Shown here piece after piece: positions 4,850-57,304 of a stretch of 64,000 nt of DNA. The notes below the pieces were generated by a model that had not been told where the DNA came from, did no database searches, and saw nothing but the letters and a program-made list of their open reading frames with translations. The DNA is from Deroplatys truncata (taxonomy: Eukaryota > Arthropoda > Insecta > Mantodea > Mantidae), in NCBI GenBank assembly GCA_030765065.1, contig CM060983.1:47738067-47802066 (forward strand). The letters run 5' to 3'. The position numbers and the translations under genes were made by a program. The stretch's first letter is position 1; every line of letters starts with the position of its first letter.

Positions 4850-7800
4850 TGCATGGCTATGACATAGCAATAGTGCCTGAAATAGGTTTTATGTAACATA
4901 TGGAGAAAATAAATAAGATCTCTTTAGTGTTACGATATGGTAGAAGTGGCTGGAATTGAATTTATGTAACATACGGAGAAAATAAATAAGATCTCTTTAG
5001 TGTTACGATATGGTAGAAGTGCCTGAAATTGGTTTTATGTAACATGTGGAGAAAAAAAATAACATCTCTTTAGTGTTACGATATGGTAGAAGTGGCTGGA
5101 ATTGGTTTTCTGTAGCATATAGAGGCAGCAAATAAGTTCTTTAGTGTTACAATATAGTAGAAGTGGCTGAAATTGGTTTTTTGTAGCATATTGAGGCAAC
5201 AAATAAGTTCTTTAGGTTACGATATAGCACAAGTGGCTGAAATTGGTTTTCCGTAGCATATAGAGGCAACAAAGAAGTTCTCTTTAGTGTTATGATATAG
5301 TAGAAGTGGCTAAAATTGGTTTTCTGTAGCATATACAGGCAACAAATAAGTTCTCTTTAGTGTTATGATATAGTAGAAGTGGCTAAAATTGGTTTTCTGT
5401 AGCATATAAAGGCAACAAATAAGTTCTCTTTAGTGTTATGATGTAGTACAAGTGGCTGAAATTGGTTTTCTGTAGCATATTGAGGCAACAAATAAGTTCT
5501 TTAGTGTTACAATATAGTACAAGTGGCTGAAATTGGTTCTCTGTAGCATATAGAGGCAACAAATAAGTTCTTTAGTGTTACAATATAGTACAAATGGCTG
5601 AAATTGGTTTTCTGTAGCATATAGAGGCAACAAATAAGTTCTTTAGTGTTACAATACAGTAGAAGTGGCTGAAATTGGTTCTCTGTAGCATATAGAGGCA
5701 ACAAATAAGTTCTTTAGTGTTACAATATAGTACAAGTGGCTGAAATTGGTTTTCTGTAGCATATAGAGGCAACAAATAAGTTCTCTTTAGTGTTATGCTA
5801 TAGTAGAAGTGGCTGAAATTGGTTTTCAGTAGCATATAGAGGCCACAAATAAGTTCTCTTTAGTGTTATGATATAGTACAAGTGGCTGAAATTGGTTTTC
5901 TGTAGCATATAGAGGCCACAAATAAGTTCTCTTTAGTGTTATGATATAGTACAAGTGGCTGAAATTGGTTTTCTGTAGCATATAGAGGCAACAAATAAGT
6001 TCTTTAGTGTTACAATACAGTAGAAGTGGCTGAAATTGGTTCTCTGTAGCATATAGAGGCAACAAATAAGTTCTTTAGTGTTACAATATAGTACATGTGG
6101 CTGAAATTGGTTTTCTGTAGCATATAGAGGCAACAAATAAGTTCTTTAGTGTTACAATATAGTACAAGTGGCTGAAATTGGTTTTCTGTAGCATATAGAG
6201 GCAACAAATAAGTTCTTTAGTGTTACAATACAGTAGAAGTGGCTGAAATTGGTTTTCTGTAGCATATAGAGGCAACAAATAAGTTCTTTAGTGTTACAAT
6301 ACAGTAGAAGTGGCTGAAATTGGTTTTCTGTAGCATATTGAGGCAACAAATACGTTCTTTAGTGTTACAATATAGTACAAGTGGCTGAAATTGGTTTTCT
6401 GTAGCATATTGAGGCAACAAATAAGTTATTTAGTGTTATAATACAGTGGAAGTGGCTGAAATTGGTTTTCTGTAGCATATAGAGGGAACAAATAAGTTCT
6501 TTAGTGTTACAATACAGTAGAAGTGGCTGAAATTGGTTTTCTGTAGCATATAGAGGCAACAAATAAGTTCTTTAATGTTACAATACAGTAGAAGTGGCTG
6601 AAATTGGTTTTCTGTAGCATATAGAGGCAACAAATAAGTTCTTTAGTGTTACAATACAGTAGAAGTGGCTGAAATTGGTTTTCTGTAGCATATTGAGGCA
6701 ACAAATAAGTTCTTTAGTGTTACAATATAGTACAAGTGGCTGAAATTGGTTCTCTGTAGCATATAGAGGCAACAAATAAGTTCTTTATGGTTACAATATA
6801 GTACAAGTGGCTGAAATTAGTTTTCTGTAGCATATAGAGGCAACAAATAAGTTCTATAGTGTTACAATACAGTAGAAGTGGCTGAAATTGGTTTTCTGTA
6901 GCATTTAGAGGCAACAAATAAGTTCTTTTCGTGTTACAATATAGTACAAGTGGCTGAAATTAGTTTTCTGTAGCATATAGAGGCAACAAATAAGTTCTTT
7001 AGTGTTACAATATAGTAGAAGTAGCTGAAATTGGTTCTCTGTAGCATATAGAGGCAACAAATAAGTTCTTTAGTGTTACAATACAGTAGAAGTAGCTGAA
7101 ATTGGTTCTCTGTAGCATATAGAGGCAACAAATAAGTTCTCTTTAGTGTTACAATATAGTAGAAGTAGCTGAAATTGGTTCTCTGTAGCATATAGAGGCA
7201 ACAAATAAGTTCTTTAGTGTTACAATACAGTAGAAGTAGCTGAAATTGGTTTTTTGTAGCATATAGAGGCAACAAATAAGTTCTTTAGTGTTACAATACA
7301 GTAGAAGTGGCTGAAAGTGTTTTTTTGTAGTATATAGAGGCAACAAATAAGTTCTTTAGTGTTACAATACAGTAGAAGTGGCTGAAATTGGTTTTTTGTA
7401 GCATATAGAGGCAACAAATAGGTTCTTTAGTGTTACAATAGAGTAGAAGTGGCTGAAATTGTTTTTTGTAGCATCTAGAGGCAACAAATAAGTTCTTTAG
7501 TGTTACAATACAGTAGAAATGGCTGAAATTGGTTTTTTGTGGTATATAGAGGCAACAAATAAGTTCTGTTTAGTGTTACAATACAGTAGAAATGGCTGAA
7601 ATTGGTTTTTTGTGGTATATAGAGGCAACAAATAAGCTCTGTTTAGTGTTACAATACAGTAGAAATGGCTGAAATTGGTTTTTTGTGGTATATAGAGGCA
7701 ACAAATAAGTTCTGTTTAGTGTTACAATATAGTAGAAGTGGCTGAAATTGGTTTTCTGTAGCATATAGAGGCAACAAATAAGTTCTGTTTAGTGTTACGA

Positions 7801-7931
7801 TATAGTAGAAGTTGCTGAAATTGGTTTTCTGTTGCACATAGAGGCAACAAGTAAGATCTGTTTAGTGTTACAATATGGCAGAAGTGGGTGAAATTGTTTT
7901 CTGCAGCATATAAAGACAATAAATAAATTCT
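4850..7931. repeat. Satellite array, 71-73-bp monomer, about 43 copies
   Basis: A head-to-tail array of a monomer containing GTGGCTGAAATTGGTTTTCT, GTAGCATATAGAGGCAACAA and ATAAGTTCTTTAGTGTTACA. The core has 71-bp spacing (TTCTTTAG form). The flanks have 73-bp forms (TTCTCTTTAG on the left, TTCTGTTTAG on the right). The first units (4850-5110) are the most divergent (GTAACATATGGAGAAAATAA form). Within the core, two variants alternate (ACAGTAGAAG and ATAGTACAAG). All short minus-strand frames here come from the repeat and are not genes. Confidence 0.96.
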
Positions 7932-9411: not shown

Positions 9412-9469
9412 TAGAATGAATCAACCTAACTGTAAGAAATATGTGTGCGAAAATACATCTGTTACATAC

Positions 9470-10245
9470 CTGTTGGCTCGCTTGCTACTGGTCTTGAGCT
9501 TTGTGCTTCCAAATTTGGTCTGGGCGAAGGTAGCCGTGGTGAAAGTGAGTGGCGCCGTAGATCGAGGGATGAAGGATGTTACAGGACTTGGCGAGCCTTT
9601 GTAAGGTGGCGGTGGTGAGGACGTCGAGCCCGGAGTGGCCGTGGTGGTCGAGGTCACGGCCTGCTGCTGTACAGGAGCGACGGATTGTACTGGCTGTACC
9701 CTGACTGGCGGCACAGTTCCCGATCCAGCACCGGGATACGGCGAGGACGAGGAGGTGCTCTTGTTGTTGGGCGAGAGGCTAAGTCCACCGAGAGAGGAGC
9801 CCACGGCCTCGATGGGCCTGAAACACTGCGCCTCAGGATTGAAGGTCTTGGTGACTTCGCGGTCTGCGGCAGAGGAAGAATCGTCGTGTGGATCTGACAA
9901 CTCGCTGAACAGCACCTTAACGGCACCCTTCTCGCCGATCCTGTAGCTCACTTCTCCGGGATCCACCCACACTGCCAGTTCCTGTGGCAGGTTCTCGAGA
10001 ACGTCCTGAATGGGAACCCCGCTTTCCCTGGCTGCTCGCTCCAGAACAGGGTCCACGGGATCACCGGTCTTGAGACATCTGAACGCTGATCCTTTGAATG
10101 GCTTTTCTGGGTACCAGTGACCCTTGAATTTGTCCTTTAGTGCCTTTTCAAGTTCTTCGCCGAAGATGTTCACCCTCCGCCGGGGCAGCTTATTGTACAG
10201 GTAGGAAATGACGAAATTTAGAGCGACTTGTACTTCTATGTGCAT
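9470..10245 (-). CDS. Tob: Tob (BTG/Tob antiproliferative protein), N-terminal coding exon
   Basis: Encodes the first 258 residues of a Tob protein. Known role of the family: the BTG domain binds the CAF1 (CNOT7/8) deadenylase and the PAM2 motif binds the MLLE domain of cytoplasmic poly(A)-binding protein, so Tob recruits CCR4-NOT to mRNAs and restrains proliferation. Seen here: a BTG domain at about residues 1-115 with the box A pattern [16 protein letters not shown] (42-57) and box [21 protein letters not shown] (86-105); a PAM2-like segment [10 protein letters not shown] (135-144); then a Ser/Pro/Thr/Gln-rich linker and the Tob-typical [18 protein letters not shown] (232-249). The start is chosen because [11 protein letters not shown] matches the family N-terminus and the ATG sits in CAAAATG. 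The frame runs into a splice donor (CAG then GTATGT, intron from 9469), leaving two bases of a split codon (phase 2). The C-terminal exon was not found. The exon is clearly more GC-rich than its surroundings. The family call is very secure. Confidence 0.94.
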
Positions 10246-10272
10246 TTTGGACGTTTGATAATCCTCTCTTCG

Positions 10273-13163: not shown

Positions 13164-13735
13164 TGAGAGGGATGGCTCAGGTGGTAACGTCTGCGACTCG
13201 CATTCGGGAAGTCGTAGGTCCGATTCCGTTCCTGACCCATGGGTTTCCTCGGGTCGCCAGGTGAATGCTGGGAAGGATCATTATATGCCCCAAATTTTCT
13301 GTCCCTCCATTTCACCTTTATTCTTATTTCACTTCACCTTTCATCTACTTATTGCAAGTGTCGGCTGGAGGTCTCGGCATGTGCTTGACAGGGAAAAGGA
13401 TGCTCTGAGTTAACCTTCGTCCCCCGATCTGCGTGCGGTCTCCATGTCTCGGGCCCCCAGGGGATGCGTGAACCCACAGGGTGGAGGGGAGCCGCTGCAC
13501 CAGCCACTACCCGGGGAGTTCAAATCTGTAAATGCTAAGGACCCTGCCCTCTGCCTGTGTATCTCCTATTCGGCCGCCCTCTGTCTACTCTCTACTTATC
13601 TCTCCCTCCCAGGGCGCCCCGTCAGGGGCCTATGCACAAAAAATCTGCATAGATCGAGGTGCTAGGACCCCCTCCGCTTCTAGTCTTGTTCCATTAGTCA
13701 GTGGCAATTTGAAGTCCTTGTCCTTGAAGCACTTC
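13164..13735 (+). mobile_element. tRNA-derived SINE, family 2 with long body
   Basis: The head has an A-box-like GATGGCTCAGGTGGTAACG, the block GACTCGCATTCGGGAAGTCG and the B-box GGTCCGATTCC. Then come CCATGGGTTTCCTCGGGTCG, a CT-rich stretch and a GC-rich body. The 3' limit is uncertain. The head family recurs at 40555-41037 (minus) and 60011-60860. Confidence 0.8.
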
Positions 13736-13741
13736 AAGTAG

Positions 13742-15262
13742 ATGAAGTATTGCTTTCTATACAGAAATTCGATATCGAGATTTCACCGGAATCACTTTTT
13801 GAGGCTCCCTGAATTTAAAAAAATCTGATGTGTTACACTCACATGACTTTCTCTACTCTTGTACAAACTATTTTTACAAAGGCTTATTCTCCATATGCTT
13901 CATGTTAATCGAGATAAACGTTTGCAGACTCTGTCTTAATGCTAATTTTCTTGTAGATGTAAGGGGAATATATATTTACAAGGGCAATATAGAAATACAG
14001 TAGCCTTTAAGCACATACATATCTCTTAATAGCTGGTTGCTAGGTGCAGCACCATTCACTTTGCCACAGATTAATACTCTTTGCATATCCAAGACAAAAA
14101 AATTAATAAGGAATTCCCATTTGAGAAAATAAGTATTGAAAATTTAAGGGAATAACAACCAATATCTCGAAAATGGTTCACTCAACAACAAAAATGTATA
14201 TGACATAAATTGTGTATTTTAACGCGATCTACATTTTTTTGTGTAGTAAAATTTTGTCTATCTCTTATGGTTTACCAGTTATGCAAAAGTCGTTCATAAT
14301 GAAGAATACTTTTGGAGACATTCCCAGAAAATTCAAGATATACATTTCACTTGTCATAAAAATATCCTAAACATATGATATTTTAATCAAAATCTTTGAG
14401 CCATTTTTGAGAAAATTAAAATTTTCGAAAAATGTTCCATGTAAAGGGTACTCTGGGGTGGGGGGATTTTCTTGAAAACCTTCGTGTCGCATCTCTGGAA
14501 CATACTGAACCTAAATACCAAGGATGGTGTTTATCCGACTGTTCGTTTCTGAGTTATGCTGTTCACAGACAGACACACGGACATGTTTCCAAAAATGCTT
14601 TCTTTGGATTCAGGGGGTCTCAAAACATGTATTTCCGGTGAAATCTCGGTATCGAATTTTTGGGTGGAATACAATACTTCCCCTACTTACTATACGTAGT
14701 AGAGAAAGTAAAAATTAGTAAAAGGCCCGTGTGTCTGTGAATAACATAGCTCAAAAACTGTAAGTCGCTCAAATACCATAGAAGTTCAGCATCTTCCAAG
14801 GATGCAACACGAAGATTTTCTAGAAAATTCCCTCCACCTCATACTAGCCTTCACATGGGAGAACCTTCGTTATTTTTTATTTTCTCAACATGAAGCCATT
14901 TTATTCGGAATGAGTTTTTTGTATAATTTTGTATAGCGGGTAAACTATATACAAAAACATGCTACACAAAAAGACACAGATCTTATTTATTTCAAATGGC
15001 TTTTTTGTGGCATAGCCATTTCCGAGGTATCCGTTATTATTGGTTTGAGATTTTCAATACTTTGTCATTCCTATAAAAGTACTGGCGCTACTCAGTTCTT
15101 TCCTGCAATGACAATAAAATACTATGAAATTTTAAGGGCAGCATATAGCGTCCCGCTTTTGAACATCTGACAATTGATTTGATTTCTATCCCGCTTATAG
15201 GCACAACGAAATGTATAATGAACCTGTTTCTGCAAAGGTTTATCTCGATTAACACGAAGTAT
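13742..15262 (+). mobile_element. Old HINE-like copy, split by a younger one
   Basis: The left part (13742-13820, from GAAGTATTG through the block ending CCCTGAATTT) and right part (14715-15262, resuming at AAAAGGCCCGTGTGTCTGTG) are the two sides of one plus-strand copy of the older subfamily. The break lies in its internal A-tract, occupied by the minus-strand copy at 13824-14709. Confidence 0.8.
13824..14709 (-). mobile_element. HINE-like element copy, complete, nested
   Basis: Complete minus-strand copy (886 bp) from TCTGATGTG at 13824 to GAGAAAGT at 14709, with A-tracts on both sides. It is inserted in the A-tract of the older plus copy. Confidence 0.92.
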
Positions 15263-18145: not shown

Positions 18146-18552
18146 TTAGATGAGATTTGGCGTTCTCCGAATACATTTTTGCAACCATTCATCACCCAAA
18201 TATGACACGATTAAAAAAATCTGATGGGTTACACTCACATGACTTTCTCTACTCTTCAAACTATTTTTGCAAACTCTTATGCTCCATCTATGTTATATTA
18301 ATCGAGATAAACATTTGCAGAAACGATCTTTTGACATGCAAAGAGAATTACATTTTACACATAGCGACCAGTTCTAAAAATATTTCACTATCGCTTAAGG
18401 CGTACTATGTTCCCCTTGTTTTGTATTTGCAAGGGCAATATAGAAATACAGTAGCCTTTAAGCATAGACATATCTCTTAATAGCTGGTTGCTAGGTGCAG
18501 CACCCTACTCTTTGCCACAGATTAATACTCTTTGCATATGCAAGACAAAAAA

Positions 18553-19458
18553 TCTGATGTGTTACACTCACATGACTTTCTCTACTCTTGTACAATCTAA
18601 TTTTACAAACGCCTATTCTCCGTATGCTTCATGTTATCGAGATATCGAGATGTCAATCTTATTGGTAATTTTCTTGTAGATGCAAGGGAAATATGGTAGC
18701 TTTTAAGCGATAGTCAAATATTTTAACGCTGGTTGCTATGTGCCGCATTCCATTCTCTTTGCATGTCCAGGACATAAAAAAATGAATAACGCATTTGAGA
18801 AAAAGTATAAGTATTGGAAAATTTAAGGAAATAACAAGCAATATCTCGAAAACGGTTCACTCTACAAAAGAAATGTATATGACATAAGTTGTGTATTTTA
18901 ACGCGATCTACATTCTTTGTGTAGTAAAATTTTGTCTATCTCTTATGGTTTACCAGTTATGCAAAAGTCGTTCACAATGAAGAACACTTTTGGAGACATT
19001 CCCAGAAAATTCGAGATATACATTTCATTTCTCATGACATTATCTTAAACATATGATATTTTCATCAAAATCGTTAGAGCCATGTTTGAGAAAATTAAAA
19101 TTTTCGAAAAATGTTCCATGTAAAGGGTAGTCTGGGGTGGAGGGATTTTCTTGAAAACCTTCGTGTCGCATCTCTAGAAGATCCTGAATCTAAATACCAA
19201 GTTTTGTGCTTATCCGACTGTTCGTTTTTGAGTTATGCTGTTCACAGACACACACACAGACACACACACAGACACACACACAGACACACACACACACAGA
19301 CACACACACACACACAGACACACACACGGACATGTTTCCAAAAATGCTTTTTTTGGATTCAGGAGGTCTCAAAACATGTATTTCCGGCGAAATCTCGGTA
19401 TCGAATTTTTGGGTGGAATGCAATACTTCCCCTACTTACTATACGTAGTAGAGAAAGT
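18553..19458 (-). mobile_element. HINE-like element copy, complete, nested
   Basis: Complete minus-strand copy (906 bp), TCTGATGTG to GAGAAAGT, inserted in the A-tract of a same-strand copy. Its internal CA-type microsatellite is expanded. Confidence 0.9.
19247..19328. repeat. Expanded CA-type microsatellite inside a HINE-like copy
   Basis: About 80 bp of alternating ACAC and ACAG units (CACACAGACACA pattern) at the place where other copies have only a few repeats. Confidence 0.95.
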
Positions 19459-20249
19459 AAAAATGAATAACGAATTCCCATTTGAGAAAATAAGTATTGA
19501 AACATTGAAGGGAATAACAAGCAATATCTCGAAAATGCTTCACTCAACAAAAAAATGTATATGACATAAATTGTGTATTTTAATGCGATCTACATTTTTT
19601 GTAGTAAAAGTTTGTCTATCTCTTATGGTTCACCAGTTATGCAAAAGTCGTTCACAATGAAGAATACTTTTGGAGACATTCCCAGAAAATTCAAGATATA
19701 CATTTTATTTGTCATGAAAATATCTTAAACATATGATACTTTAATCAAAATCGTTAGAGCCATTTTTGAGAAAATTAAAATTTTCGAAAAATCTTCCATG
19801 TAAAGGGTAATCTGGGGTGGGGGGATTTTCTTGAAAACCTTCGTGTCGCATCTCTGGAAGATACTGAACCTAAATACCAAGTTTGGTGTTTATCGGACTG
19901 TTCGTTTCTGAGTTATGCTGTTCACAGACACACACACGGACATGTTTCCAAAAAGGCTTTTTTTGGATTCAGGGGGGTCTCAAAACATATATTTCCGGTG
20001 AAATCTCGGAATCGAATTTTTCGGTGGAATACAATACTTCCCCTACTTAGTATACGTAGTAGAGAAAGTAAAAAGTATATGTAATGATCACATGAATTGC
20101 TTACCCATTAGCATTTATACTCTTAGTCATTCTACAAATTATTTATACTCATTTCCACGTACTTATTAATCATTATAAATATTCACCAGAAAATGCTTCA
20201 ATTATGATGCTATGGTAATAAAGGTAATGTAGGCTATTGACAGCTAATC

Positions 20250-24550: not shown

Positions 24551-24763
24551 TTTCTCTTCCAGTATTTTCCGTTCTTTCCCCCTCTCTTCCCCTACATTGC
24601 CCCATCCCTTTCCTCTGTATAGCGTGCTGACATGTAATGTTTTCATAATTCATAACTAAACGGTTTTCTTTCCTGGGAATTTAATAAAAATAAATACGTA
24701 TCTGAACCTTTTAACTGTATACAAACTTGTGCCTATACTGTGTGCTTGCAACGCGATCGTAAC
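24551..24763. other. Spacer
   Basis: CT-rich then AT-rich, with no gene recognised. Confidence 0.4.
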
Positions 24764-24765
24764 TA

Positions 24766-26008
24766 CACTATGTGATCAAAAGTATCCGGACACCCCCACA
24801 AACATACATTTTTCATCTTAGGTGCATTGTGCCGCCACCTATTGCCTGGCACTCATTATCCGCGACCTCAGTAGTCATTAGACATCGTGAAACAGGCAGA
24901 ATGGGACGCTCCGTGAAACTCACGGTCTTCGAACGTGGTCAGGTGATTGGGTGTCACTTGTGTCAGAAGTCTGTACGCGAGATTTCCACACTCCTAAACA
25001 TCCCTAGGTCCACTGTTTCTGATGTGATAGTGAAGTGGAAACGTGAAGGGACATGTACAGCACAAAAGCGTACAGGCCGACCTCGTCTGTTGACTGACAG
25101 AGACCGCCGATATTTGAAGAGGGTCGTAAAGAGTAATAGGCAGACATCTATCCAGGCCATCACACAGGAATTCCAAACTGCATCAGGATCCACTCCAAGT
25201 ACTATGACACTAAGGCGTGAGGTGAGAAACCTTGGATTCCATGGTCGAGCGGCTGCTCATAAGCCACACATCACGCAGGAAAATGCCAAACGACGCCTCG
25301 CTTGGTGTAAGGAGCGTCAACATTACACGATTGAACAGTGGCAAAATGTTGTGCGGAGTGACGAATCACGGTACACAATGTGGCGATCCGATGGCAGGGT
25401 GTGGCGAATGCCCGGTGAACGTCATCTGGCAGCGTGTGTAGTGCCAACAGTGAAATTCGGAGGTGGTGGTGTTATGGTGTGGTCGTGTTTTACCTGAAGG
25501 GGGCTTGCACCCCTTGTTATTTTGCGTGGCGCGATCACAGCGCAGACCTAAACTGATATTTTAAGCACCTTCTTGGTTCCCACTGTTGAAGAGCAATTCG
25601 GGGATGGCGATTGCATCTTTCAACATGATCGAGCACCTGTTCATACTGCACGGGCTGTGGCAGAGTGGTTACACGACAATAACATCCCTGTAATGGACTG
25701 GCCTGCACAGAGTCCTGACTTGAATCCTATAGAACACCTTTGGGATGCTTTGGAACACCAACTTCGTGCCAGGCCTTACAGACCTACATCGATACCTCTG
25801 CTGAGTTCCGCACTCCGTGAAGAATGGGCTGCTATTCCCCAAGAAACCTTCCAGCACCTGATTGAAAATATGCCTGCGAGAGTGAACGCTGTTATCAAGG
25901 CTAAGGGTGGGCCAACACCATATTGACTACCAGCATTACCGATAGAAGGCGCCACGAAATTGTACGTCATCTTCAGTCAGGTGTCGGGATACTTTTGATC
26001 ACGTAGTG
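24766..26008 (+). mobile_element. Tc1-family transposon, copy 1
   Basis: Terminal inverted repeats CACTATGTGATCAAAAGTAT (left) and, inverted, CACTACGTGATCAAAAGTAT (right) are flanked by TA at 24764-24765 and 26009-26010. Length 1243 bp. It has one transposase frame. Confidence 0.95.
24901..25926 (+). pseudogene. Tc1 transposase (DD34E) with two nonsense codons
   Basis: A single frame of 341 codons from ATG to the stop at 25926, without frameshift, interrupted only by TGA at codon 199 (25495-25497) and TAA at codon 217 (25549-25551). The N-terminal HTH region (about 5-55, with QKSVREISTLLNIPRSTVS) is followed by a GRPR hook (59-62) and a second HTH. The catalytic acids are D154 (RSDES), D243 (QHDRAPVH) and E278 (SPDLNPIEHLW), with 34 residues between the last two. 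Family role: cut-and-paste transposition at TA. The second copy at 29242 keeps sense codons at both stop positions but has frameshifts. Probably inactive. Confidence 0.93.
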
Positions 26009-29241: not shown

Positions 29242-30486
29242 CACTACGTGATTAAAAGTATCCGGACACCTGGCTGAAAATGACGTACAAGTTCCTGGCG
29301 CCCTCCATCAGTAATGCTGGAAGTCAGTATGGTGTTGGCCCACCCTTAGCCTTGATAACAACGTTCACTCTCGCAGGCATACTTTCAATCAGGTGCTGGA
29401 AGGTTTCTTCGGGAATGGCAGACCATTCTTCACGCAGTGCGGAACTGAGGAGAGGTATTCATGTAGGTCGGCGAGGCCTGGCACGAAGTCGGCGTTCCAA
29501 AACATCCCAAAGGTGTTCTATAGAATTCAAGTCAGGACTCTGTGCAGGCCAGTCCATTACAGGGATGTTATTGTCGTGTAACCACTCCGCCACAGCCCGT
29601 GCAGTATGAACAGGTGCTCTATCGTGTTTAAAGATGCAATCGCCATACGCGAATTGGTCTTCAAAAGTGGGAAGCAAGAAGATGCTTAAAATATCAATGT
29701 AGGTCTGCGCTGTGATCGTGCCACGCAAAACAACAAGGGGTGCAAGCCCCCTCCAGGAAAAACACGACCACACCATAACACCACCACCTCCGAATTTCAC
29801 TGTTGGCACTACACACGCTGGCAGATGACGTTCATCGGACATTCGCCATACCCACACTCTGCCATCGGATCGCCACATTGTGTACCGTGATTCATCACTC
29901 CACACAATGTTTTGCCACTATTCAATCATGTAATGTTGACGCTCCTTACAACAAGCGAGGCGTCGTTTGGCATTTTCCTGCGTGATGTGTGGCTTATGAG
30001 TAGCCGCTCGACCATGGAATCCAAGGTTTCTCACCTCACGCCTAACTTCATAGTACTTGGAGTGGATCCTGATGCAGTTTGGAATTCCTGTGTGATGGTC
30101 TGGATAGATGTCTGCGTATTACTCTTTACACCCTCTTCAAATGTCGGCGGTCTCTGTCAGTCCTCGGACGAGGTCGGCCTGTACGCTTTTGTGCTGTACA
30201 TGTCCCTTCACGTTTCCACTTCACTATCACATCAGAAACAGTGGACCTAGGGATGTTTAGGAGTTTGGAAATCTCGCGTACAGACTTCTGACACAAGTGA
30301 CACCCAATCACCTGACCACGTTCGAAGTCCGTGAATTCCTCGGAGCGTCCCATTCTGCCGTTTCACGATGTCTAATGACTACTGAGGTCGCGGATAATGA
30401 GTACCAGGCAGTAGGTGGCAGCACAATGCACCTAAGATGAAAAACTTATGTTTGTGGGGTGTCCGGATACTTTTGATCACATAGTG
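29242..30486 (-). mobile_element. Tc1-family transposon, copy 2, inverted relative to copy 1
   Basis: Same terminal inverted repeats as copy 1 (CACTACGTGATTAAAAGTAT left, CACTATGTGATCAAAAGTAT right inverted), TA on both sides, 1245 bp, minus-strand transposase. Confidence 0.95.
29325..30353 (-). pseudogene. Tc1 transposase with frameshifts
   Basis: Starts at 30353 like copy 1 (MGRSEEFTDFERGQ). A single-base loss stops the frame near 30126 (after DRDRRHLKRV). The frame is regained by 29905 (WSDESRYTMW), with an insertion giving GRVWVWRM, and continues through the second Asp (KHDRAPVH) and Glu (LNSIEHLWD) to about 29460, where it is disturbed again. The positions corresponding to the two nonsense codons of copy 1 are Trp and Tyr here. 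Confidence 0.9.
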
Positions 30487-35030: not shown

Positions 35031-35186
35031 TAGGGTGATTTATGAAGAACTGACACATTTCTTTCTTTAATTATTCTGCTCCAAATTCACTGAATGTCCC
35101 AATTTTAGCACAAAATTAAGCAGAATGTTTTGGTGTTTCGATTGCCTGTCACTAGATACGCAGATGTTCATGTTTTATTCGTAATC
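35031..35186 (+). mobile_element. Truncated left end of the 8088-type mariner
   Basis: Matches 8088-8245 closely (GATTTATGAAGAACTGACAC, TTTCTTTAATTATTCTG, GCAGATGTTCATG) and stops where a SINE begins. TA precedes it at 35029-35030. Confidence 0.88.
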
Positions 35187-35540
35187 CCGCTCCGTGAATA
35201 TAAACTTAACTCCAATGCGCAAGAGCCCGTTGCCGGGCCAGGGTTTATCGCCGTGGCGCTGCGCCCCCCCCACCTCTGCTCACAACGGGCGTCATAAGTG
35301 GGGTGCAGTACTGGGTGGGACGTCATCAGCGCCCTGGGTCCTTCCCGGCCGGTATATGCGGCCTTCTCAACAGAGCCGCTACTTTCCAATCAAGTAGCTG
35401 CCTAATTGGTCCTCATGGACCTAACGAGCGCACCCCGGGCCAGGTCTCCCAGCGGGAGAAAATCCCCACGCTGGTGCCGGGAATTGAACCGGGGTCTCCT
35501 GTTTGGTTTAGCAGCTACGCTACCGCCGCGAAGGTGAAAA
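35187..35540 (-). mobile_element. tRNA-derived SINE, family 5, GC-rich
   Basis: On the minus strand the head has GGTAGCGTAGCTGCTAAACC (A-box like) and the B-box GGTTCAATTCC, followed by a GC-rich body ending near the truncated mariner. Single copy here. Confidence 0.8.
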
Positions 35541-36118
35541 GTATAAATATTTAAAAATCTAAACCAACTACAAAGCCTATTTCAGAAATGGTTAACGCCA
35601 TGAAACATTTATTTGTCATGAATTGTGTGCTTAAACAGATCTACATTACTTGTATAGTAACATTTTGGCTGTCTCTTACGGTTTACCAACTATACAAAAC
35701 TCATTCGGAATGAAAAGGACTTCACAGGCTATTCCCAGAAAATTCAAGTTATATACAGTTTTGTCACGTAAACATTTTTAATGTATGGCATTTTAATCAA
35801 AATCCTTAAGAGCCACTAAAATAAGAGTTTTGAAAAACGTTCCATGAGGGTAGCTTGTAGAGTGGGTATTTTCTTGAAAATCTTGGTGTCACATCTTTGG
35901 GAGATACTGAAATTATGTAACAAGTAGGTATTTAACCGACTCTTCGTTTTTGAGTTATGCTATTCACACATACAAACGGACCTTTTTTCTAAAAATGCTG
36001 TGTTTTTACTTTCTCTACTATGTATACTAAGTAGGGGAAGTATTGTATTCCACCCAAAAATTCCATACCGAGATTTCACCGGAAATACATGTTTTGAGAT
36101 CCCCTGAATCCAAAAAAA

Positions 36119-37880
36119 TCTTATATGTTACACTCACATAAATTTCTCTACTCTTGTAGAAACTATTTTTACAAACGCTTATTCTCCATATGCTTATGTT
36201 AATCGAGATATCGAGATGTCAATCTTATTGCTAATTTTCTTGTAGATGCAAGGGAAATATGGTAGGTTTTAAGCGATAGTCAAATATTTTAAGAGCTGGT
36301 TGCTATGTGGCGCATTCCATTCTCTTTGCATGTGTAGGACATAAAAACAAAATCTGATGTGTTGCACTCACATGACTTTCTCTATTCTTGTACAAAGTAT
36401 TTTTACAAACGCTTATTCTCCATCTAGTTCATGTTAATCGAGATAAACATTTGCAGACTCTATCTTATTGCTAATTTTCTTGTAGGTGTAAGGGGAATAT
36501 ATATTTACAAGGGCAATATAGAAAAACAGTAGCCTTTCAGCACATACATATCTCTTAATAGCTGGTTGCTAGGTGCAGCACCATTCACTTTGCCACAGAT
36601 TATAACTCTTTGCATATCCAAGACAAAAAAATGAATAACGAATTCCCATTTGAGAAAATAAGTATTGAAAAATTTAAGGGAATAACAAGCAATATCTCGA
36701 AAATGGTTCACTCAACAAAAAAAATGTATATGACATAAATTGTGTATTTTAACGCGATCTACATTTTTTTGTGTAGTAAAATTTTGTCTATCTCTTATGG
36801 TTTACCAGTTATGCAAAAGTCGTTCACAATAAAGAATACTTTTGGAGACATTCCCAGAAAATTCAAGATATACATTTTATTTGTCATAAAAATATCTTAA
36901 ACATATGATATTTTAATCAAAACGTTAGAGCCATTTTTGAGAAAATTAAAATTTTCGAAAAATCTTCCATGTAAAGGGTACTCTGGGGTGGGGGGATTTT
37001 CTTGAAAACCTTCGTGTTGCATCCTTGGAAGATACTGAACCCAAATACCAAGTTTGGTGTTTATCCGACTGTTCGTTTCTGAGTTATGCTGTTCACAGAC
37101 ACACACACAGACAGACACACAGACACACACACGGACATGTTTCCAAAAATGCTTTTTTTGGATTCAGAGGGTCTCAAAACATGTATTTCCGGTGAAATCT
37201 CGGTATCGAAATTTTGGGTGGAATACAATACTTCCCCTACTTACTATACGTAGTAGAGAAAGTAATTAATAACGAATTTGAGAAAAGTATAAGTATTGGA
37301 AAATTTAAGGGAATAACAAGCAATATCTCGAAAACGGTTCACTGAACAAAAAAATGTATACGACATAAATTGTGAATTTTAACGCGATATACATTTTTTG
37401 TGTAGTAAAATTTTGTCTATCTCTTATGGTTTACCAGTTATGCAAAAGTCGTTCACAATGAAGAATACTTTTGGAGACATTCCCAGAAAATTCGAGATAT
37501 ACATTTCATTTGTCATGACAATATCTTAAACATATGATATTTTAATCAAAATCGTTAGAGCCATTTTTGAGAAAATTAAAATTTTCGAAAAATATTCCAT
37601 GTAAAGGATAGTCTGGGGTGGAGGTATTTTCTTGAAAACCTTCGTGTCGCATCTCTGGAAGATACTGAACCTAAATACCAAGGTTGGTGTTTATCCGACT
37701 GTTCGTTTCTGAGTTATGCTGTTCACAGACACACACACACACATACACGGACATGTTTCCAAAAATGCTTTTTTTTGGATTCAGGGGGTCTCAAAACATG
37801 TATTTCCGGTGAAATGTCGGTATCTAATTTTTGGGTGGGATACAATACTTCCCCTACTTACTATACGTAGTAGAGAAAGT
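36119..37880 (-). mobile_element. HINE-like copy B, inside A and split by C
   Basis: 36119-36352 (3' end) and 37264-37880 (TTAATAACGAATTTGAG to GAGAAAGT) join into one minus copy of about 850 bp. The break is in the internal 'GGACATAAAAA' A-tract. Confidence 0.86.
36353..37263 (-). mobile_element. HINE-like copy C, innermost, complete
   Basis: 911 bp from TCTGATGTG to GAGAAAGT, uninterrupted, closest to the family consensus. Confidence 0.92.
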
Positions 37881-37902
37881 AAAAAGCATTTTTGGAAACA
37901 TG

Positions 37903-37905
<3 letters not shown>

Positions 37906-37958
<53 letters not shown>
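37906..37958. repeat. (GT)n expansion inside copy A
   Basis: 53 bp of uninterrupted GT at the family's fixed microsatellite position. Confidence 0.97.
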
Positions 37959-37960
<2 letters not shown>

Positions 37961-38757
37961 CAGCAGAACTCAGAAACGAACAGTCGGATAAACACCAAAC
38001 TTTGTATTTAGGTTCAGTATCTTCCAGAGATGCGACACGAAGGTTTTCAAGAAACTCCCCCCAACCCAGATTACTCTTTACATGGAACATTTTTCGAAAA
38101 TTTTAATTTTCTCAAAAATGGCTCTAACGATTTTGATTAAAATATCATATGTTGAAGATATTTTCATGACCAATGAAATGTATATCTCGAATTTTCTGGG
38201 AATGTCTCCAAAAGTATTCTTCATTGTGAACGACTTTTGCATAACTGGTAAACCATAAGAGATAGACAAAATTTTACTACACAAAAAATGTAGATCGCGT
38301 TAAAATACACAACTATGTCATATACATTTTTTTGTTGACTGAACCATTTTCGAGATATTGGTTGTTATTCCCCTAAATTTTCCAATACTTATACTTTTTC
38401 TCAAATTCGTTATTCATTTTTTTGTCCTGGTAATGCAAAGAGAATGGAATACTCCACATAGCAACCACCTCTTAAAATATTTGACTATCGCTTAAAGCCT
38501 ACCATATTCCCCTTGCCCCTACAAGAAAATTAGCAATAAGATTAACATCTCAATTAACATGAAGCATATGGAGAATAAGCGTTTGTAAAATTAGTTTGTA
38601 CAAGAGTAGAGAAAGTCATGTGAGTGTAACACATCAGATTTTTTATTTGTTGATTCAGTAGACCTAAAAAGGTGTGTATTTGCATGGAATCTCATTCGAT
38701 ATCAAATGTTTTGGTGGAACGCAATATTTTCTCTACTTAGAATAGGTAAATAATAGA

Positions 38758-42465: not shown

Positions 42466-43288
42466 ACTTTCTCTACTACGTATAGTAAGTAGGGGAAGTA
42501 TTGTATTCCACCCAAAAATTCGATACCGAGATTTCACCGGAAATATATGTTTTGAGACCCCCTTGAATCCAAAAAAGAATTTTTGGAAACATGTCCGTGT
42601 GTGTGTCTGTGAACAGCATAACTCAGAAACGAACTGTCGGATAAACACCAAACTTGGTATTTAGGTTCAGTATCTTCCAGAGATGCGGCAAACGTTTTCA
42701 AGAAAATCCCCCCACCCCAGATTACCCTTACATGGAACATTTTTCGAAAATTTGAATTTTCTCAAAAATCACTAACGATTTTGATTAAAATATCATATGC
42801 TTTAAGATATTTTCATGACAAATGAAATGTATATCTCGAATTTTCTGGGAATGTCTCCAAAAGTATTCTTCATTGTGAACAACTTTTGCATAACTGGTAA
42901 ACCATAAGATATAGACAAAATTTTACTACACAAATAATATAGATCGCGTTAAAATACAAAACTTATGTCATATACATTTTTTGTTGAGTGAACCATTTTC
43001 GAGATATTGCTTGTATTTCCTTAAATTTTCCAATACATTTTCTCTAATGGGAATTCGTTATTCATTTTTTTATGTCCTGGACATACAAAGAGAATGGAAT
43101 GCGTTACATAGCAACCAGCTCTTAAAAGATTTGACTATCGCTTAAAGTCTACCATATTCCCCTTGCACCTACAAGAAAATTAGCAATAAGATTAACATCT
43201 CGATTAACATGAAGCATGTGGAGAATAAGCTTTTGTAAAAATAGTTTGTACAAGTGTAGAGAAAGTCATATGAGTGTAACACATCAGA
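42466..43288 (+). mobile_element. HINE-like element copy, complete
   Basis: 823 bp, ACTTTCTCTACTACG to CACATCAGA, T-tracts both sides. Confidence 0.93.
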
Positions 43289-43299
43289 TTTTTTAAGTA

Positions 43300-44705
43300 A
43301 GGTAAGTATTGTATTCCACCCAAAAATTCGATATAGAAATGTCACCGGAAATACATGTTTTAAGGCACTCTGAATCCCCCCCAAAAATTTAGAGAAAGGT
43401 TTGTGTGCGTGTGTCTGTGAACAGCATAATTCAAAAACCATCAACACCAAACTTGGTATTTAAGTTCAGCGACCTCCAAAGATGCGAAACGAAGATTTTC
43501 AAAAAAGTCCCCCACCCCAGACTATCCTTTACATGGAAGAGTTTTCTAAAAAATTCCTTAAGGAGTTTTATTAAAATACCATATATTAAAGGTATTTACA
43601 TGATAAAAAAATATATATCTTGAATTTTCTGGGAAAAACCTCTGAAGTCCACTTCATTTAGAAGAAATTTTGTATAACAGGTAAACGTGACAAACGAAAA
43701 CGTATACTACACAACAAATGTAGTTATCTTTAAAAGACACAAGTTATTTAAAATAAGTATTTTTGGTGGTAAAAGTCGTTTATGAGATATCCGCTACTAA
43801 GGTTTGAATTCTTCGTTTATTGGTTCATTCTCTTAGAGTCCTTTCAACATTTAGTTGTTTATCGCGATGTCATGGAAATAGTATGGAATTTTAAAGCTAG
43901 CATAATTCTCCATATGCTTCGTGTTAATCGAGATGTTAATCTTATTGCTAATTTTCTTGTAGATGCAAGGGAAATTGGTAGGCTTTAAGCGATAGTCAAA
44001 TATTTTAAGAGCTGGTTGCTATGTGCAGTATTCCATTCTCTTTGCATTACCAGGACAAAAAAATGAATAACGAATTTGAGAAAAAGTATAAGTATTGGAA
44101 AATTTAAGAGAATAACAAGCAATATCTCGAAAGTGGTTCACTCAACAACAAAATGTATATGACTTAAATTGTGTATTTTAACGCGTTTTACATTTTTTGT
44201 GTAGTAAAATTGTGTGTATCTCTTATGGTTTACTAGTTATGCAAAAGTCGTTCACAATGAAGAATACTTTTGGAGACATTCCCAGAAAATTCAAGATATA
44301 CATTTTATTTGTCATGAAAATATCTTAAACATATGATATTTTAATCAAAATCGTTATAGCCATTTTTGAGAAAATTAAAATTTTCGAAAAATGTTCCATG
44401 TAATGGGTAATCTGGGGTGGGGTGATTTTCTTGAAAACCTAAATACCAAGTTTGGTGTTTATCAGACTGTTCGTTTCTGAGTTCACACACGGACATGTTT
44501 CCAAAAATGTTTTTTTATATTCAGGGGACCTCAAAACATATATTTCCGGTGAAATCTCGGTATCGAATTTTTGGGTGGAATACAATACTTCCCCTACTTA
44601 CTGTACGTAGTAGAGAAAGTAATAAGCTTTAGTAAGATTACCTTGTATACCTACTATTAAACATAGAGGTAGAGAAAGTCATGTAGGTGTGTCATCAGAT
44701 TTTTA
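43300..44705 (+). mobile_element. Old HINE-like copy, split by a minus copy
   Basis: 43300-43905 (from GTAAGTATTGTATTCCACCC) and 44625-44705 (AGGTAGAGAAAGTCATGTAG to TCATCAGA) appear to be one old plus copy. Confidence 0.7.
43906..44620 (-). mobile_element. HINE-like copy, 3'-truncated, nested
   Basis: Minus copy starting inside the 3' region (ATTCTCCATATGCTTCGTG) and ending with the intact 5' terminus GTAGTAGAGAAAGT. Confidence 0.85.
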
Positions 44706-48011: not shown

Positions 48012-48824
48012 ACTTTCTCTACTACGTATAGTAACTAGGGGAAGTATTGTGTTCCATCCAACCGGAAAAATATGTTTTGAGACCCCCTGAATAAAAAAAA
48101 GATATTTTTGGAAACATGTCCGTGTGTGTGTGTCTGTGAACAGCACAACTCAGAAACGAACAGTCGGATAAACACCAAACTTGGTATTTAGGTTCAGTAT
48201 CTTCCAGAGATGCGACACGAAGGTTTTCAAGAAAATCCCCCCATCCTAGATTACCATTTACATGGAATATTTTTCGAAAATTTTAATTTTTCAAAAATGG
48301 TTCTAACGATTTTGATTAAGATATCATATGTTTAAGATATTTTCATGACAAATGAAATGTATATCTTGAATTTTCTGGGAATGTCTCCAAAAGTATACTT
48401 CATTGTGAACGACTTTTGCATAACTGGTAAACCATAAGAGATAGACAAAATGTTACTACAAAAAATGTAGATCGCGTTAAAATACACAATTTATGTCATA
48501 TACATTTTTTTTGTTGAGTGAACCATTTTCGAGATATTGCTTGTTATTTCTTTAAATTTTTGCAATACTTATAGTTTTTCTCAAATGGGAATTCGTTACT
48601 CATTTTTTTGTCCTGGTAATGCAAAGAGAATGGAATACTCCACATAGCAACCAGCTCTTAAAATATTTGACTATCGCTTAAAGCCTAGCAATTCTCCTTG
48701 CATCTACAAGAAAATTAGCAATAAGATTAACATCTTCGATTAACATGAAGCATATGGAGAATAAGAGTTTGTAAAAATAGTTTGTACAAGAGTAGAGAAA
48801 GTCATGTGAGTGTAACACATTAGA
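48012..48824 (+). mobile_element. HINE-like element copy
   Basis: 813 bp with a small deletion in the 5' part, ending CACATTAGA, followed at once by part of an older copy. Confidence 0.9.
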
Positions 48825-49524
48825 TTTTTAGAAAAAGACCCGTATGTGTCTGTGGGCAGCACAACTAAAAACTAAATCTCGGATAAACACCAAACTTGAT
48901 ATTTAAGTCCAACTTCCTCCAAAGAGCGACACGAAGATTTTCAAATAAATCCCCCCACCCCAACTACCCTTTATTTAACATTTTTCGAGATGTTTCAAAA
49001 ATGGCTCAAACAATTTTGATTAAAATACCATATATTAAAGATATTCACATGACTAATAAAATGTATATCACGAATTTCTGGGAATACTTTGTGAATTCGT
49101 CTTCCTTCTGAAGGAGTTTTGTGTAATATTGTATAACTGGTAAACGTTAAACGGTAGACGTAAACGTGCTACACAATAAATTAATATCTGTTTAAAACAG
49201 ACAATTCATTTCAAATAACTTTTTTGTGGCATTAGCCTTTTCTGAGATATCCGTTATTAATGGTTCGAATTGCTCAATACTTGTCATTCTTTCAAGTCCT
49301 GTCGATTTTCAGTTGTTTCTCACGATGGCCTGGAAATGGCAAGAAATTTCAAGGTCGGCATATAGCGTCCAGCATTTAACTATCTTTGTTCTCTTTCTTA
49401 ATGAAATGTGTAATGTAGCTATTTCTGCAAAGGTTTATCTCGATTATAATGAAGCAAGAATAATTTGTATAGCCATTGATAAACGATAGAGGGTAGAGAA
49501 AGTCATGTGAATGCAACACAGAAA
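48825..49524 (+). mobile_element. Old-subfamily HINE-like copy, right part only
   Basis: Starts at TTTTTAGAAAAAGACCCGT and runs to GTCATGTGAATGCAACACAG. The 5' block is absent. Confidence 0.78.
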
Positions 49525-49529
49525 ATTTT

Positions 49530-51646: not shown

Positions 51647-51647
51647 C

Positions 51648-51800
51648 TTCCGTAGCTCAGTCGGTAGAGCACCTGCCTGCTGTGCGAGGGGTCCCGGGTT
51701 GGATTCCTGGCTGGGAACTTTTCTCTAGCCAAGATTATTCCCTAACCTCCCCAGAGTCTGGAAGTATGAACGCGTGTGTGACCTAATGATTAAAACCCAA
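51648..51800 (+). mobile_element. tRNA-derived SINE, family 6
   Basis: TCCGTAGCTCAGTCGGTAGA and the B-box GGGTTGGATTCCTGGCTGGG give an almost complete tRNA-like head. The acceptor stem does not close fully and a non-tRNA body follows, so this is a SINE rather than a tRNA gene. Confidence 0.7.
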
Positions 51801-54384: not shown

Positions 54385-55044
54385 ACTTTCTCTACTACGT
54401 ATAGTAAGTAGGGGAAGTATTGCATTCCACCCAAAAAATTCGATACCGAGATTTCACCGGAAATACATGTTTTGAGACCCCCTGAATCCAGAAAAAGCAT
54501 TTTTGGAAACATGTCTGTGTGTGTGTGTCTGTGAACAGCATAACTCAGAAACGAACAGTCGGATAAACACCAAACTTGGTATTTAGGTTCAGTATCTTCC
54601 AGAGATGCGACACAAAGGTTTTCAAGAAAATCCCCCTACCCCAGATTGCCCTTTACATGGAACATTTTTCGAAAATTTTAATTTTCTCAAAAATGGCTCT
54701 AACGATTTTGATTTAAATCTTATATGTTTAAGATATTTTCATGACAAATGAAATGTATATCTCGAATTTTCTGGGAATGTCTGCAAAAGTATTCTTCATT
54801 GTGAACGACTTTTGCATAATTGGTAAACCATAAAAAAATTGTAGATCGCGTTAAAATACACAATTTATGTCATATACATAATGCAAACAGAATGGAATAC
54901 TCCACATAGCAACCAGCTCTTAAACGCTTAAAGCCAATTCCCCTTGCACCTACAAGAAAATTAGCAATAAGATTAACATGAAGCATATGGAGAATAAGCG
55001 TTTGGAAAAATAGTTTGTACAAGGGTAGAGAAAATCATGTGAGA
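54385..55044 (+). mobile_element. HINE-like element copy with internal deletions
   Basis: 660 bp. Standard 5' terminus; several deletions in the second half (for example after AAACCATAAA and in the CACATCAGA end). Confidence 0.88.
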
Positions 55045-55530
55045 TTTTTTTAAAAGAAGTTCGTGTGTCTATGTGTGTTTGAGAACAACAAAACCCAAAA
55101 CGGAAAGTTGAATGAATACTTCTTTCCTAAGTCAGGAACTTTTAAGGATACAAGGCGAAAATCTTCAACGAATTTCCCTACCCAAAAAAAACCCTACACA
55201 TGTAACATGTTTCGTTATTTTTTAAGTTTCTCAAAAACAGATGTTTTGATTAAATGCCATAGGTGTAAGAAGAAAATGTATAGACTGAATTTGTGAATAG
55301 GTTGTGAAGGCTTCCTCAGTCTTATTGAATGTTACATAACTGAGAAACCATAAGAGAGAGACGAAATCTTACCAAAGCAAAAATGCAGACCTTACTAAAG
55401 CATGCAGTTACTGTAAAATAAGGATTTTTGTAATGTTAATTACTTCTGAAATAGTCGATATTTTCATTTTAATCACTCCAAATGTGTGCTTTGAAATTTT
55501 AACTGGCTGTTATTTTGTTTCTTGTGAGCT
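55045..55530 (+). mobile_element. Old HINE-like copy, right part only
   Basis: Starts at TTTTTTTAAAAGAAGTTCGT and continues through ACCATAAGAGAGAGACGAAA. As at 48825, the 5' block is missing. Confidence 0.65.
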
Positions 55531-57304
55531 GATGCAAAGAACATATTATAGGAGGCATTTAAATAATTATGGGGAGTAGTTGCTAAAAGATTCTGTTATT
55601 TGAAGAAGTGATTTCTCGCTGCACTTTGATGGCTCTTGAACACTGTAATTGTGCTATTCAGAGGTGCGTAATGAAGTATATCATCCCATTTAAAATATCA
55701 AAATTGACCCCTTATCTCCTTCACCCCTAGGCTTAAAAAACTTATAGCCCCCTTGGACTAAAATAACTTTTCTTTTATCCTCCAAAGTGGGCGTGTTAAT
55801 AAGATGACCTGTTTTAAGTGCCACAGTCTGATCTGATATTATTCATACATATATAAAACATAGACACTATATCAAGACTAATTAATCTGCTGCTAAAACA
55901 AAAAGCTCCATTTTTTGTTCATACATTTTAAGTTAATAAACAGTTTTCTTCACTCTTTTTTGTGAAATATTTATCATTTATAACAGTAAACAGATTTTAA
56001 TAAATTAACAGCTTTTAGAGTAGCTATGAAAAAAAATGGTTAGAGAGAGCATTGTGATAGATAAACAACGTTTTTTTAAGTTACACTCCTAGCCTCATTT
56101 CATAAATACGCAAAAGCGTAACGCTTAATAATTAGTAACTGATTGCAGTACGGTATATAAACCGGTTCTCTCCTGCCTAATAGACTACATGCGCACGCAC
56201 TACCTTCAGCAGCAGCTAAATGCTTAAGGCGAACCAATAATACAGTACAAGTTTTTGAATCATATCAAATAACTAGACATAGCGATTTAATGTGGAAAAT
56301 CAGTTTTTTCTGATAATCGATCCCCTGTATTTTAGAGGTAGATTTTATAAGAATGTTTTTAAGAATATTAAAAAAAGGAATAAATCCAAAAGCAGAAAGT
56401 TTATACTTGTTTATTTTGGAGGAAATAATAATACGGCAACTTTTATTAATTCTTTACATTACTAATTTTTGTTTCATTACAGTGGGCCATGAGTCACAAG
56501 TTTGCAACAAATGAGAATCAGGATATGATAAATAGATTATGGGACCTTAGATTACTCACATATGCGACATTGTAAATAACCATTGCTGATAGAGAGGATT
56601 CTTTAACTCTTATTACAATAGAGTTGTAAGATGTTTCTTTAAAATTGACAGGGAGAGAGTGTTAGATAAAAACTGATTTCCCGTGTTAAATCTTATGTCC
56701 ATGTAGGTATGGTGTTTCCTGTGAAGAAATTGTTCAATTATTCTGCTATACGTAACGTAATCTTATGAATTATTTAAGCGTTTAAAAATATTTGCTGCAA
56801 AACATTTTAAACTCAGTTACATAAAACGTATAATCTTGTAGGTATTATATATGTGTGTATATAACATATATACCGGATAATGAAGTGAAATTTTGTTTTA
56901 TAAAAATTATTGCTATTAATTATTAGCTCATTAGCTTACATACATAACTAAGACGTCTTTTAAAACTAATTAATATGTTAGGTCAACTTAAAAATTCAAA
57001 GAGGCGCGTTTAAAAACTACTATGCATATTTTAAAAATTGCATTGTTGAATTCTCTAATTCTTTTAGATTTACCATCTGTAGTAATACTTAGATATGCGA
57101 AACAAGGAGCAAAATTTTTCGTAATCATTTACGCTTACAGCTTTAAAACGAAAACATCCAAAAGTAGACATGATTTACGATTAACCAGTTGCCCCATTTA
57201 TTCAAAAAGCGTCTAGGATCATAAAACATGATTGTTTTTATCCAAATGCTTTACTTCACGCTTTGGGGAGCGGAAAAATCCCGAGAGCTGTATCAGGAAG
57301 ATCG
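55531..57304. other. No recognisable gene (55531-57304)
   Basis: Very AT-rich, with no repeat family recognised. The longest frame is 64 codons (57022) and has no motif. Confidence 0.45.

Follow-up and report, generated by a model that had tools for sequence, protein, structure and literature searches.

A Four-Level Nest of a HINE-like Repeat Family and a Favored Self-Insertion Tract in the Genome of Deroplatys truncata

Introduction

DINE-1 and HINE elements are typified by subTIRs, a partner repeat, a microsatellite, a 3' palindrome, and T-rich targets, as set out in the available portions of PMC4067079, PMC2374699, and PMC7492417. The first of these also describes clustering and end bypass and, in the portion available, leaves open how the Ts are divided between a HINE and its target. 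Excerpts of PMC5148889 report self-inserted, composite Helitrons in Fusarium oxysporum, in which multiple 5' ends were explained by self-insertion. In a fly region, 11 of 322 repeats were nested (PMC3630058, in excerpt). None of the titles and opening lines of abstracts surveyed on Helentron, DINE-1, and Helitron nesting describes a single-tract self-landing hotspot in a HINE.

Here, we analyze a stretch of 64,000 nucleotides (the window) in which a reading of the sequence alone had pointed to a stack of four nested copies, and we place it in the context of the source assembly (4.29 Gb, 818 contigs). Nesting itself is already known for Helitrons (PMC5148889); the part worth following is a self-insertion hotspot at a T-run near consensus position 622 of the family (T622).

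Results

Four Copies of One Family Are Nested in the Window

Self-comparison of the window made many copies of one repeat family visible, and a family profile was built from 27 of them. It covers 22,099 of the 64,000 bases (34.5%). A second, leave-out profile was made without the four copies of the stack (A, B, C, and D). The sequence-only reading had proposed that D contains A, A contains B, and B contains C, with each interrupted copy resuming at the matching position on the far side. The profile map bears out both points: the order is D(−) > A(+) > B(−) > C(−), and the leave-out profile yields an identical layout (Table 1). Strands across the interval read D(−), A(+), B(−), C(−), B(−), A(+), D(−), and model coordinates run on across the inserts in all three hosts, with joins at model 104/109 (A in D), 111/107 (B in A), and 620/620 (C in B). 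By a hand estimate, each of the three joins would keep the same strand and continue to within about 5 of the model's 866 positions by chance with a probability of roughly 0.006.

Table 1. Parts of the stack and related features, in window positions
Feature	Position	Profile match	Strand	Extent and site
D, first part	35537–36002	to 36006	−	model about 593–104
A, first part	36003–36111	36008–36120 (model 1–113)	+	T5 plus consensus 1 to about 104
B, 3' part	36112–36348	36114–36347	−	model 866–620
C, complete innermost copy	36349–37265	36349–37263	−	model 865–1
B, 5' part	37266–37885	37263–37880	−	model 620–1 plus T5
A, remainder	37886–38643	37881–37926 (model 107–152), 37934–38642 (model 128–865)	+	model 107–865; (GT)n microsatellite at 37906–37958
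D, remainder	38644–38757	38646–38749 (model 109–11)	−	model 109 to about 1
Second nest of the A-run kind	13734–14888		minus copy in plus host	antiparallel; tract 105–118 (105–111 tract)
Second nest of the T622 kind	18215–20069		−	minus copy in minus host at 622, parallel
Microsatellite, GT/GTCT	37094–37137			
Microsatellite, GT/GTCT	37906–37958			
Microsatellite, GT/GTCT	19243–19332			

The tracts that had been named as insertion sites are also right. A lies in D, and B in A, at the same A7 run (consensus 105–111), A being on the strand opposite to D; C lies in B at the T-run at about 622, on the same strand. The A-run at 36112–36118 is the host tract of A and is held in common with the end of B. 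Where B entered A, the host tract, which reads A7 in numerous copies, is present as A7 on one side and A5 on the other, a net gain of five As (about five Ts) that may come from the element or from the target. Where C entered B, the host T-run precedes ATGTCC; the 5' flank of C is down to two Ts, and the 3' side reads TTTTGTTTTT. T5 stands to the left and T6 to the right of the degenerate tract of D at which A is found.

After excision, A (model 1–865), B (1–861), and C (1–865) each gave one match, almost end to end, with the profile that includes the four copies; with the leave-out profile, A splits into two matches around its microsatellite. The earlier expectation that every copy would align in this way was borne out for these three and not for D, which aligns over model 11–592 only. 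A scan at a relaxed threshold found no weak match to the distal part (model 594–865) beside D, which ends against a tRNA-like stretch at about 35183–35540, a SINE as read by eye. D is truncated, a correction to the first reading.

The window has other features besides this family. A minisatellite with a 71-bp unit (42.7 copies) occupies 4872–7931, a frame with a BTG/Tob domain (E 7.6e-41) lies on the minus strand at 9421–10272, and pieces of Tc1/mariner-type transposases (HTH_Tnp_Tc3_2, DDE_3) are found at 24763–25926 and 29459–29917. A tRNA-Ser-like sequence at 51647–51718, called by ARAGORN and by a weak Rfam tRNA match, adjoins an old family copy.

Nesting, Not Divergence, Orders A, B, and C

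The sequence-only reading had derived a relative age order within the locus and expected divergence to rise from C to D, with no inner copy more diverged than its host. D is clearly the oldest copy by divergence. In a maximum-likelihood tree of 20 copies its terminal branch measures 0.232, compared with 0.019 for C, 0.024 for A, and 0.025 for B, and its distance to the main-subfamily consensus is 0.328. The expected rise therefore holds for D, but A, B, and C are unordered or partly reversed. Their terminal branches differ by few substitutions only and fit the C-to-D order within error, whereas their distances to the same consensus point in the opposite direction (A 0.029, B 0.039, C 0.058), so that on this measure inner copies are more diverged than their hosts. 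C belongs to another subfamily, lying 0.042 from its two relatives; with a pooled leave-out consensus, it is still more distant than B (0.035 and 0.030). Because branch lengths and consensus distances disagree and are partly reversed, divergence was dropped as a clock for these three copies.

The same comparison was made for ten units with an insert at T622. The insert is nearer the leave-out consensus than its host in 7/10 (medians 0.024 for insert and 0.039 for host; one-sided p = 0.053), and the B/C pair of the window is among the three whose insert is no younger than its host. The proposed age order, D then A, B, and C, stands in that it follows from the nesting geometry; for A, B, and C it comes from the nesting alone and not from divergence.

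The Target T-Strand Sets the Orientation of New Copies

Exact 28-base 5' ends of the family number 62,675 + 62,885 = 125,560 genome-wide, a lower bound on its 5' ends. Taking 0.85 kb per end and each end as a full copy, a hand estimate puts the family at about 107 Mb, or 2.5% of the assembly. Exactly five Ts stand on the 5' side at 12 of 16 ends in the window and at 34 of 49 sampled genome ends, and of 59 sampled ends, 48 have 5–9 Ts on the 3' side. The pattern is consistent with a T5 carried by the element itself and a target T-run left on the 3' side; alternatively, the five Ts may reflect a five-base duplication at the run edge.

Orientation was read from exact junctions throughout the genome. 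The T622 tract, GACATAAAAA, has its T-run on the element's own strand and shows 15,246 parallel versus 27 antiparallel junctions. The 105–111 tract (CTGAATCC/GCATTTTT) is an A-run and shows 1,270 antiparallel versus 45 parallel junctions. Control patterns read backward gave 0 matches in each count. Genome-wide, at both tracts, the T-strand of the target sets the orientation of the new copy.

T-Run Density Accounts for Nesting within the Window

The stack had also been taken as a sign of repeated self-targeting. In the window, 256 of 482 A/T runs of five or more lie inside family copies (element-terminal runs excluded); about 8.5 of the 16 young 5' ends are expected in or against another copy, and 10 were counted by eye from the map. 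Six of those ten have host sequence on both sides (one join is imprecise), and the other four have it on one side. One tract was used by three of the six two-sided nests. If bases are chosen uniformly, the probability that three of six fall within 8 bp is 0.006; if the choice is among ten tracts weighted by length, the figure for that tract is P = 0.29. On the latter figure, tract reuse was rejected as significant. Special self-targeting was likewise rejected for the window alone, where the density of T-runs explains the nesting.

A fairer sample is provided by 46 complete, uninterrupted copies at 40 loci on one contig, chosen by an intact 105–111 tract. Twenty-nine have no family neighbor, 8 are one-sided, 5 lie inside one host, and 4 lie between two different neighbors; family coverage in these loci is 27.7%. 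The same script calls three one-sided cases in the window (42466, 48012, 50440). Such cases may come from deletions or read-through. Another search, in which 40 of 4,136 candidates were scored, found T622 nesting in 7/8 loci; it may favor multi-copy places, and no rate was taken from it.

Three places in the window (42466–43897, 48012–49529, and 54385–55544) show a young copy with an older, equally oriented copy directly after it and no copy on the left; the older one is missing its 5' part. The older copies start at model 21, 114, and 114, respectively, and the pairs are possible products of read-through, deletion, or recombination.

T622 Is a Favored Self-Landing Site

Exact patterns found T622 filled 15,246 times and empty 54,066 times genome-wide (about 22%), a rate that is somewhat overestimated, as the empty pattern omits one subfamily form; the counts are of junction copies, partly amplified, and not of events. 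By the same approach, the 105–111 tract was filled 1,270 times and empty 83,808 times (1.5%). T525, the longest T-run of the consensus, whose length varies among copies, has 953 filled junctions. T622 junctions make up 12.1% of all exact 5' ends. T622, the tract that received C, is a strongly favored self-landing site genome-wide. The claim of repeated self-targeting thus survives in a changed form: the window is explained by T-run targeting and density, the genome-wide preference is specific to the tract of C, and the A-run tract that had been stressed is little used.

Neither base flanking the T-run accounts for the preference: one was found in 13/35 cases versus 441/1,076 background runs (p 0.73) and the other in 19/36 versus 415/1,076 (p 0.12). 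A palindromic form of the site, with ATGTCCTGGACAT after the T-run, is commoner among filled sites (78:21) than among empty ones (43:26; p = 0.023), a hint only, as these counts were made by hand from partial lists covering different stretches of one contig. Context energies computed for both tracts, T622 and 105–111, showed no clear pattern.

The first 31 empty T622 sites listed all fall in one tandem array, near the start of contig C1 (C1:20306–122564), whose unit of about 3.4 kb includes a HINE; the array gave at least 31 rows. At C1:158336162–158343467, four 105–111 self-insertion junctions recur at a spacing of about 2.4 kb and represent a tandemly amplified nested unit. Units with inverted arms form a further class: the arms lie 4–10 kb apart, and each has two HINE-derived heads about 443–478 bp apart. 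They occur at L029 and L030 (C1:8174100–8190800) and, on the same contig, at 13833732–13843059, 22028068–22033236, 26123579–26132929, and 32879668–32888551. The inverted-arm unit is a larger repeat that took up HINE pieces.

Separate Insertions Are Favored over Joint Travel

B could have held C already when it jumped into A as one unit, and T622 nests in general could be composites that were then amplified, made of a full copy with a head, with a tail, or with both; there would then have been fewer events at the locus. We regard this as improbable. Composite, chimeric Helitrons have been proposed (PMC5148889, in excerpt), and the arrangement A[B[C]B]A is seen again at locus L003. Amplification did contribute to the counts: 15 of the first 100 head junctions listed lie in inverted-arm repeats. 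Locus L008 is a T622 nest of four levels, all of them parallel, that comprises three heads and three tails. Its two outermost heads share 99.1% identity across 223 bp and resemble each other more closely than other pairs at the locus do, which hints that local duplication may have had a part in this nest. Of the 14 T622 units picked automatically, both head and tail are present in 6, just a head in 4, and just a tail in 4, as composites that travel with one end would, although the headless L033 and L012 do show part of a head.

Other features speak for independent events. Head and insert sequences are unlinked across ten units (Mantel r −0.12, p 0.58; a small sample), and head junctions (15,246) are similar in number to tail junctions (12,033, in one sequence form only). 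Outside the inverted-arm repeats, the 85 remaining heads among those listed resolve into 70 nests, 56 single, 13 double, and 1 triple, the depths that independent hits predict; the chance of a further level is 20%, close to the occupancy of T622. Head–tail pairs, for which both ends must match exactly, number 14 among the 100 heads and 81 of the 100 tails listed, a figure that is neutral as to complete nests. Since head and insert are not linked, separate insertions are favored over travel as one unit, within the limits of the small sample.

The Family Has a HINE-like Structure

The repeat is about 850–915 bp long and non-coding; among frames of 110 aa or more, the longest overlapping a copy has 123 aa. 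The ends are sharp in an alignment of ten window copies: T5-ACTTTCTCTACTACGTATAGTAAGTAGGGGAAGT at 5' and GTAGAGAAAGTCATGTGAGTGTAACACATCAGA-Tn at 3', with a GT-type microsatellite in between. An 11-bp 5' subTIR, ACTTTCTCTAC, is exact in 14/16 5' ends, and its exact inverse, GTAGAGAAAGT, in 14/17 3' ends, counted by hand in ends chosen by their similarity to the ends of the element. Beside the 5' subTIR lies a partial inverse, GTAGGGGAAGT, complementary at 9/11 positions. The 5' end folds at −5.7 kcal/mol (z −3.93 versus shuffles). The consensus 3' end contains a palindrome, ATGTG-7-CACAT, whose fold is not more stable than that of shuffled sequences (z −0.34; z −0.97 for the stem by itself).

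On this structure, we file the family as a putative HINE, a DINE-1-like non-autonomous Helentron. A canonical Helitron (5' TC, 3' CTRR, insertion at A/T) was rejected: the ends here are T5-ACTTTC and CAGA-Tn, and the target is a T-run. A MITE of a TIR transposon was rejected as well, given that terminal inverted repeats are absent. More broadly, a different class of DNA transposon, not rolling-circle, such as a MITE that makes a five-base TTTTT target duplication, would accord with the roughly five Ts gained where B entered A, as a duplication inside a T-run, and DINE-1 itself was once called a MITE on its subTIRs alone (PMC2374699, in the portion available). We nonetheless hold this to be very unlikely, in that the 3' inverted repeat lies inside the element, about 22 bases short of the CAGA end, and the number of Ts is pinned at five on the 5' side but variable on the 3' side.

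That assembly error or repeat recombination made the stack, as high copy number and the existence of tandem arrays (at least 31 rows, about 3.4 kb apart, at C1:20306–122564) might suggest, is scarcely credible when the same kinds of junction recur by the thousands in strict orientation and the join in each of the three hosts is precise to the model position.

Helitron-Type Rep Proteins Are Present in the Source Genome

With 150 of 291 candidates scored, at least 152 matches to PF14214 (Helitron_like_N, a Helitron-type Rep) were found in the source genome; 0 of 14 control genomes had a match. Eighteen of the matches listed fall within open frames at least 2,000 aa long (hand count). The HINE 5' end is absent from the 3 kb around the start of one PF14214 frame, and the ends of that element were not reached in 6 kb. 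No Helitron-family Pfam match was found in the 8 of 20 window open frames scanned. We infer that the proteins that move the HINE come from other elements, and its pairing with Helitron_like_N elements is presumed.

A frame of at least 978 aa at C1:248258300–248261300 (L057) has a Herpes_teg_N-type domain (E 2e-9), tandem peptide repeats, and DUF6570 (E 4.6e-17). It is probably the frame of a PF14214 match of 2,324 aa.

Discussion

The locus is best explained, with good but not complete confidence, by a HINE that is moved by proteins of other elements, inserts into T-runs in an orientation given by the T-strand, and has stacked as D<-A<-B<-C by self-insertion. On insertion into a T-run, the 5' end of the element, TTTTT-ACTTTCTCTAC, reads in the direction of the T-strand, and the orientation of the new copy is thereby fixed by the strand of the target run, as seen genome-wide at two tracts. 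With many A/T runs in its own sequence and great abundance, new copies often land in old ones. D took A at its A-run, on the opposite strand; A took B at the same A-run, again on the opposite strand; and B took C at the T-run near 622, on the same strand. The stack puts the insertions in order with no need of a clock. The family also offers data in large numbers on how the Ts of a HINE divide: in most copies the 5' side is pinned at five, the 3' side is variable, and the T-strand dictates orientation.

A more tentative proposal, which we put forward as a possibility short of an even chance, is that the element has its own landing pad: the T622 region, one form of which has the palindrome ATGTCCTGGACAT, would be preferred by the transposition machinery. 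Its basis is the contrast between 15,246 junctions at T622 and 953 at T525, 1,270 at the A7 run, and 27 in the wrong orientation, together with the hinted excess of the palindromic form among filled sites; the inflation of the T622 total by amplified copies counts against it. If the proposal is correct, about 1 in 5 copies holds a copy in the same orientation at T622, and nests deepen roughly geometrically, as if copies were hit independently. Insertions would be steered away from genes, and serial heads and tails would be a source of chimeric elements. T622 would then provide thousands of natural insertions at a known site with known empty versions, so that target choice by Helentrons, and how composite elements arise, could be tested directly.

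The family resembles HINE/DINE-1 elements in its subTIRs, one at the 5' end and one internal to the 3' end, the partner repeat beside the 5' subTIR, the microsatellite, the sequence of a 3' palindrome, T-rich targets, terminal Ts, non-coding sequence, and high copy number. It differs from those described in PMC4067079, PMC2374699, and PMC7492417 in having its own sequence, in a 5' T count that is fixed at five in most copies while the 3' count varies, and, as far as the available portions of that literature go, in using one internal T-run as a self-insertion hotspot. With the Helitrons of Fusarium oxysporum (PMC5148889, in excerpt), it shares the nesting of one Helitron in another. That study presents one nested example and several multi-headed copies, whereas here a HINE-like family in a large genome shows 15,246 exact junctions at a single tract.
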